Shown one piece after another: positions 59,099-60,555 of a stretch of DNA of 64,000 nucleotides. The stretch covers positions 62,001 to 126,000 of the forward strand of contig NZ_JALIDZ010000005.1 of the NCBI RefSeq assembly GCF_025397915.1, written 5' to 3'. The stretch is from Microbaculum marinisediminis. GTDB lineage: Bacteria > Pseudomonadota > Alphaproteobacteria > Rhizobiales > Tepidamorphaceae. The position numbers and the translations under genes were made by a program. Positions within the stretch are counted from its first letter, which is position 1; each line of letters begins with the position of its first letter. A model generated the notes under the pieces. It made no database searches. It had not been told where the DNA came from and saw only the letters and a list, made by a program, of their open reading frames with translations.

Positions 59099-59262
59099 GT
59101 TTTCCGTGTCCGGATGCCTGAATCTTTTGCAGTGCAGCAAAATTTTTGCGCATGCGAAATATGCAGGCCTGTCATGTAGCGATCGGTCTTCTAAAAAGGT
59201 CAGGGTAGCTTACCTTCCTTCTCGAAACGGCACCGAATTCAGTTCCAGCCGAGGAGGTTGTG

Positions 59263-59481
59263 ATGGCCACGACGATTTTTGCCCCCACTCACATCGCTGT
59301 AGAGCCGCGGCAGCGCCGCAGTGTGCTCCGGCGCATGTTCGACCACATGGTGAAGGCCCGCGAGGCCGAGGCGCGCCGCCTGACGGCGCGTGCGCTCTGG
59401 TCCTACAGCGACGAGTCGCTGAAGAACATGGGGCTTACCCGCGAAGAACTCGCCCGCTGGCATTCGGGCGCGACCGACTGA
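59263..59481 (+). CDS. DUF1127-type small protein
   Basis: A 72-residue basic protein ending in the DUF1127 (YjiS-like) pattern: RRMFDHMVKAREAEARRL followed by LWSYSDESLKNMGLTREELARW. Small DUF1127 proteins in alphaproteobacteria have been linked to phosphate and carbon metabolism and RNA turnover; nothing here fixes the role. The ATG at 59263 is set by GAGGAGG; a GTG three bases earlier is too close. A strong terminator follows. Confidence 0.8.
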   Translation: MATTIFAPTHIAVEPRQRRSVLRRMFDHMVKAREAEARRLTARALWSYSDESLKNMGLTREELARWHSGATD

Positions 59482-59514
59482 CCGGTCGACGGCAGATTTC
59501 CTCCTGACCTTGCG

Positions 59515-59550
59515 ATCCCCGGTCCGGCGTCCCCGGACCGGGGATTTCTT
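59515..59550 (+). terminator. intrinsic terminator of the DUF1127 gene
   Basis: A perfect 13-base stem, ATCCCCGGTCCGG with CCGGACCGGGGAT, loop CGTCC, then TTCTTT. It is 34 bases past the stop and close to the end of the convergent prmA. Confidence 0.92.
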
Positions 59551-59581: not shown

Positions 59582-60451
59582 CTACCGCGCCTCCAGCGCC
59601 AGGGTCGCCCAGCCGTCGCGGGCGATGCGGAACAGCGGCACGCAGCCCTGCGCCCGCCAGGCCGCTTCCACCTCGCGGCGCTGGCCGACCAGCAGACCCG
59701 ACAGGATGACGATGCCGCCGGGCGCGACCAGCGGCCGGACCTGCGGCGCGAGCTTGACCAGCGGCTTGGCCAGGATGTTGGCGAAGACCAGGTCGTAGGG
59801 CGCGCCCTGGCGCACGGCGGCGGTGTCGACGCCGTTGGCGGTGAACGCCTTGACCTGCCCGCCGACGCCGTTCTTGACCGCGTTCTCCTTTGTCACCGTG
59901 ACCGCCAGCGGGTCGATGTCGGTCGCCATCACGGCGATGCGCGCGGCCTTGGCATGGGCTATCGCGAGGATGCCGGTCCCCGTGCCGATATCGAGGGGCC
60001 GGAAGAAGCGCCGCCGCTTCAACAGCCGGTCCAGCGCCATCAGGCAACCGAGCGTGGTGCCGTGATGGCCGGTGCCGAAGGCTTGGCCGGCCTCGATCTC
60101 GATGGGGATGGCGTTCGCCGGAATGCGGTGGCGGTCGTGATGGCCGAACACGGCGAAGCGGCCGGCATGGATCGGCGGGAGGGCCTCCAGGCTCTCCTTG
60201 ACCCAGTTGCGGTCGGCGAGCGCCTCGATGGTGATCTTGTACCTGGCCGCGCCCTTGCCGAGCGCATTGACCATCACCGCGCGCAGCGTCGCCTCGTCCG
60301 GCTCGTCGGTGTAGTAGGCCTCGCCGAGCCAGCCCTTTTCGGCCTCCATCATGGAGACGGCGTTGGTCTCGGGCTCCAGCGCGTAGCTCAGCGCGTTCGA
60401 GAGGATATCGGCCTCGGTCTCGTCTTTGACCGGAATGCGGACCCTGAAAAT
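59582..60451 (-). CDS. prmA: ribosomal protein L11 methyltransferase, apparent AUU start
   Basis: A SAM enzyme that trimethylates ribosomal protein L11. FGTGHHGTTLGCL, LDIGTGTGILAIAHAK, TDIDPLAV and FANILAKPL are intact. The first ATG in frame (60352) would remove the conserved N-terminal substrate-recognition part. The frame remains open upstream and encodes a family-like N-terminus (FRVRIPVKDETEADILSNAL) with no ATG, GTG or TTG. At 60451 an ATT codon follows GGAGG with six bases spacing, giving 289 residues, the normal length. I therefore propose AUU initiation, as in infC. An upstream frameshift or sequence error is the alternative. Confidence 0.85.
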   Translation of the reverse strand: MFRVRIPVKDETEADILSNALSYALEPETNAVSMMEAEKGWLGEAYYTDEPDEATLRAVMVNALGKGAARYKITIEALADRNWVKESLEALPPIHAGRFAVFGHHDRHRIPANAIPIEIEAGQAFGTGHHGTTLGCLMALDRLLKRRRFFRPLDIGTGTGILAIAHAKAARIAVMATDIDPLAVTVTKENAVKNGVGGQVKAFTANGVDTAAVRQGAPYDLVFANILAKPLVKLAPQVRPLVAPGGIVILSGLLVGQRREVEAAWRAQGCVPLFRIARDGWATLALEAR

Positions 60452-60555
60452 GGCGAACCTCCAACCTGAACCGGCGAGCCTGCGAATAGGAATCCGCCTC
60501 TCATACTGCTATGCCGCTCGCGCGGATAGGGGCGTTCGATCGACGATGAGCAGCT

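Follow-up and report, generated by a model that had tools for sequence, protein, structure and literature searches.

The prmA locus and its product

The window, which is the whole 64,000-nucleotide stretch of DNA analysed, carries on its minus strand prmA, a gene for a predicted ribosomal protein L11 methyltransferase. Among named records, a Tepidamorphus MAG (G001) is the closest, at 78% identity, and it points to the family Tepidamorphaceae in the order Hyphomicrobiales. The gene and its start region comprise the following features:

59582–60451, minus strand: prmA, ribosomal protein L11 methyltransferase, from NCBIfam NF001784, Pfam PF06325 and a fold match
60449–60451, minus strand: ATT, the strongly supported start codon of prmA, from alignment with family relatives
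60458–60462, minus strand: GGAGG, the Shine-Dalgarno sequence of prmA, from an energy of about -11 kcal/mol for its pairing to the 16S tail
60353–60451, minus strand: the 33 codons 5' of the first ATG in prmA, from the AlphaFold2 model and dN < dS
60350–60352, minus strand: the first in-frame ATG of prmA (codon 34), lacking a Shine-Dalgarno sequence and not conserved as a start
60509–60511, minus strand: TAG, the in-frame stop that closes the prmA frame upstream, from re-reading of the frame

Re-reading of the minus strand showed all of the prmA coordinates in the original prediction to be correct. The frame opens with the ATT at 60451–60449, spans 289 codons and ends at the TAG at 59584–59582, with six bases, TTCGCC, separating the GGAGG (60462–60458) from the ATT. 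As had been proposed, ATG, GTG and TTG are absent from the 52 codons lying between the TAG at 60511–60509 and the ATG at 60352–60350. An open frame is by itself little proof of an AUU start, and it is the comparison with relatives that lifts the case above chance.

The product is PrmA, a predicted L11 methyltransferase, which passes the cut-off of the NCBIfam equivalog for the alphaproteobacterial enzyme (NF001784; 270.3 bits versus 244) and is also matched by Pfam PF06325. In the NF001784 alignment, PrmA residues 10–286 correspond to model positions 11–289 of 290. As residue 10 aligns to model position 11, the ATT stands at the expected start position, and the claim of a PrmA of normal length, 289 residues, beginning six bases after GGAGG, fits this alignment. 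An AlphaFold2 model built from 56 sequences has a mean pLDDT of 90.7, with block values of 80–93 over residues 1–40. The best solved matches of this model in Foldseek are T. thermophilus PrmA, over 287–290 columns, and the N-terminal L11-binding domain and the class I methyltransferase domain are both present. The enzyme family and fold are thus the same as those of T. thermophilus and E. coli PrmA.

A small DUF1127-like gene (MATTIFAPTHIAVEPRQRRSVLRRMFDHMVKAREAEARRL...) is located on the plus strand at about 59260–59480 and converges with prmA. It is ended by a strong, terminator-like hairpin at 59514–59546, and G006 has a similar gene at the same place.

The start codon inside and outside the family

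The family sample comprised eight genomes, and prmA was readable in only seven of these. The aligned first codon is ATT in the source genome (G000), G001 and G006, ATC in G002 and G007, and ATG in G005 and G004. The three ATT and two ATC genomes span three genera. Since the aligned codon is ATG in two relatives, the position of the start codon is fixed, and these alignments strongly support the AUU at 60451 as the translation start, in agreement with the original prediction. In-frame canonical codons are absent from prmA before residue 34 in G000 and G001 and before about residue 83 in G006 and G007, and none of these four (of the five AUU/AUC genomes) has an in-frame canonical start upstream. 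In the fifth, G002, the only nearby canonical codon is an in-frame GTG located 45 bases upstream of the ATC and lacking a Shine-Dalgarno sequence. By sequence comparison, prmA is a gene with a conserved, non-canonical (AUH) start, with the conserved N-terminus beginning at the AUH codon. As G004 and G005 start at AUG, the trait is not indispensable.

Translation could in principle begin at the ATG at 60352, where the prmA frame has its first canonical codon, leaving the upstream 33 codons untranslated. Several findings make this very unlikely. These 33 codons are conserved, with dN < dS, and the ATG of relatives is found at the position of the AUU. The internal ATG is preceded by pairing of only -3.0 kcal/mol, that is, no Shine-Dalgarno sequence, and in G006 and G007 such a codon would be reached only at about residue 83. 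The N-terminal domain of PrmA is responsible for recognition and binding of L11 (PMC3347575). In the AlphaFold2 model, the first strand of this domain is formed by residues 2–8 and is followed by a helix at residues 11–23. Residues 2–23 would therefore be needed for the L11-binding domain, and a start at residue 34 would lose both strand and helix. Codon 34 is probably not a start. Gene finders limited to ATG, GTG and TTG would nevertheless shorten PrmA to 256 residues (206 in G006), at the cost of some or all of the L11-binding domain.

It is extremely improbable that the ATT is a sequencing error, or that translation begins upstream in a different frame and then shifts into that of prmA. Five genomes agree on ATT or ATC, so that independent species contradict the error for which the original prediction had asked relatives to be inspected. 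A frameshift could draw on two out-of-frame codons, an ATG lying some 53 bases upstream and a TTG at 60464. However, G000 and G001 do not share the frame of this ATG, and the peptides encoded from it differ between them; the TTG is not conserved. Frameshifting from the upstream ORFs was rejected, as a common frame, a common peptide and a shared slippery site are all absent.

Outside the family, a canonical start was found at or near the expected N-terminus in 133 of 134 sampled PrmA loci. These include every one of the 105 loci (45 and a further 60) from the same order; a class-wide sample added 29 loci, nearly all of other orders, of which 28 start canonically. The sole exception, L185 (G328), is from another alphaproteobacterial order and its prmA seems to start at CTG. 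The matching codon is TTG in the sister species G379 (71% identical) and ATG in G380, and the CTG appears to be an independent weak start. A second candidate, prmA of G064 (L126), was rejected: its N-terminal domain is interrupted by a frameshift, probably an assembly error in this draft genome, and its start is ATG.

Neighbouring genes were also examined by a conserved N-terminus check, in which about 33 further genes within the window, plus about 27 on the contig flanks, were compared with G006 (300 kb) and G007 (100 kb). No non-canonical start was found among these approximately 60 conserved neighbours, the apparent gaps being overlapping upstream genes or shadow frames. Generally relaxed start codons in this genome were consequently rejected, and, with canonical starts in all other genes checked, the machinery of initiation does not seem lax overall. 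In the family, infC starts at ATC in G000, G005, G006 and G007 and at ATA in G003 and G004 (L065–L070), and in these six genomes strong Shine-Dalgarno sequences accompany the ATC or ATA. Here too, gene finders restricted to ATG, GTG and TTG would place the start later.

Shine-Dalgarno strength and changes of the start codon

The AUU and AUC starts of prmA are offset by strong Shine-Dalgarno sequences, with pairing energies of -7.4 to -11.5 kcal/mol, whereas those of the two AUG relatives are weak (-2.2 and -4.9 kcal/mol). A stronger Shine-Dalgarno sequence beside a weak start is a general trend, described for GUG and UUG by Belinky et al. (PMC5622118). In the PrmA tree, G004 is placed outside, and the pair (G005, G007) lies beside (G002, (G006, (G000, G001))). 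This topology requires at least two switches of the start codon: either the non-AUG start was gained once and G005 went back to AUG, or it was gained twice.

These changes could reflect relaxed selection, where the start decayed once or twice because the dosage of prmA is of little consequence, and the strong Shine-Dalgarno sequence compensates for the loss. Retention of AUG in G005 and G004, the minimum of two changes on the tree, the CUG start of L185 in another order and the general trend just described are all consistent with this explanation. Against it, the four-species clade of G000, G001, G002 and G006 shows no single-base return to AUG, and AUG-to-AUU switches are rare, being found at 1 in 61,358 starts (Belinky et al., PMC5622118). 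In addition, the third base of the start codon is T or C in all five non-AUG genomes. The start codons of G000, G001 and G006 share a T even though GC3 is 83–94% in the coding part of prmA, while 0 of 96 fourfold sites of prmA do so. As T is not kept at these fourfold sites and GC3 is high, drift is an improbable source of the T at the start, although this retention against base composition concerns a single site and is suggestive only. Taken with the rarity of the switch, relaxed selection is considered unlikely.

A proposed link between start-codon discrimination and the output of PrmA

To our knowledge, very few bacterial genes begin at AUU or AUC. Two AUU-start genes are known in E. coli. 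No report of a non-canonical prmA start, for T. thermophilus and E. coli included, was found in the open-access papers searched. A class of genes with AUU or AUC starts is thus already known; the membership of prmA and the conserved exchange of ATT and ATC appear to be new.

The proposed mechanism is that the strong Shine-Dalgarno sequence would position the AUU at 60451 for initiation, where it would be decoded by the ordinary fMet initiator tRNA. The third base of AUU or AUC pairs badly with the initiator anticodon, which would allow IF3 to destabilise the 30S complex. PrmA would then be made at a low rate, which would rise as IF3 becomes scarce in relation to ribosomes, and PrmA output would run parallel to that of infC, which has an AUC start in the same genome. 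It is known that codons with poor third-base pairing to the initiator anticodon are disfavoured by IF3 (PMC10158994) and that the non-canonical starts of infC and sigR are repressed by IF3 (PMC5472188). By analogy with the published infC and sigR work, IF3 would discriminate against the prmA start, and its codon type alone suggests an IF3-repressed gene. An AUU start combining a strong Shine-Dalgarno sequence with a low, IF3-disfavoured and IF3-linked output is the likely arrangement. Tuning of prmA by IF3 discrimination, as the original prediction supposed, is plausible and is indirectly favoured by four observations: a third-base T or C is kept, the Shine-Dalgarno sequence is strong, infC of the same genome starts at AUC, and control of this kind is published for infC and sigR. 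That prmA belongs to an IF3 regulon, with its AUU/AUC start coupling L11 methylation to the ratio of IF3 to ribosomes, is a tentative proposal, quite possible yet short of probable.

Comparison with known genes shows both likenesses and differences. Both infC and prmA belong to the translation apparatus, and both have a good Shine-Dalgarno sequence before a conserved AUH start. Unlike prmA, infC encodes IF3 itself, resulting in autoregulation, whereas any control of prmA would be that of a downstream gene; in addition, the AUH start of prmA is so far confined to one family. The Streptomyces sigR gene also has a conserved non-canonical start with an extended Shine-Dalgarno sequence (PMC5472188), and its start is GTC in some species and GTT in others, much as prmA has either ATT or ATC. 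It differs from prmA in using GTC instead of AUH and in encoding a sigma factor, and its repression by IF3 was shown by experiment (PMC5472188).

The AUU could instead be a start that sets a fixed low output, with IF3 varying too little to act as a signal. The precedent is pcnB of E. coli, a translationally limited gene which, like prmA, is non-essential and has a housekeeping role, and which is kept low by its AUU start (PMC9410913), although the two enzymes are unrelated. Also in line with a fixed output, prmA is non-essential in E. coli, where mutants show no growth defect (PMC3347575). As these mutants grow normally, weak expression of prmA may be tolerated and not useful. Against a fixed output, infC of the same genomes uses the same codon class; sequence does not separate the two readings. 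A fixed low output is possible, but on the doubtful side.

A low or IF3-linked output of PrmA may nonetheless be of use to the cell. L11 is methylated at the factor-binding site of the ribosome. The AUU/AUC start bears on the purpose of L11 methylation, which would gain a physiological control if prmA were in an IF3 regulon. With its conserved start, prmA is also a ready, naturally occurring case in which to look for IF3 control of genes other than infC outside Streptomyces.

Around the prmA start, no leader RNA or known RNA family was matched above the Rfam gathering score, and no sigma-70-type promoter for prmA was found. The leader lies between divergent genes, and at about 60498–60530 of the window it contains CCCCTATCCG and CATAGCAGTATGA, which are common to G000 and G001 and are probably candidate promoter elements.
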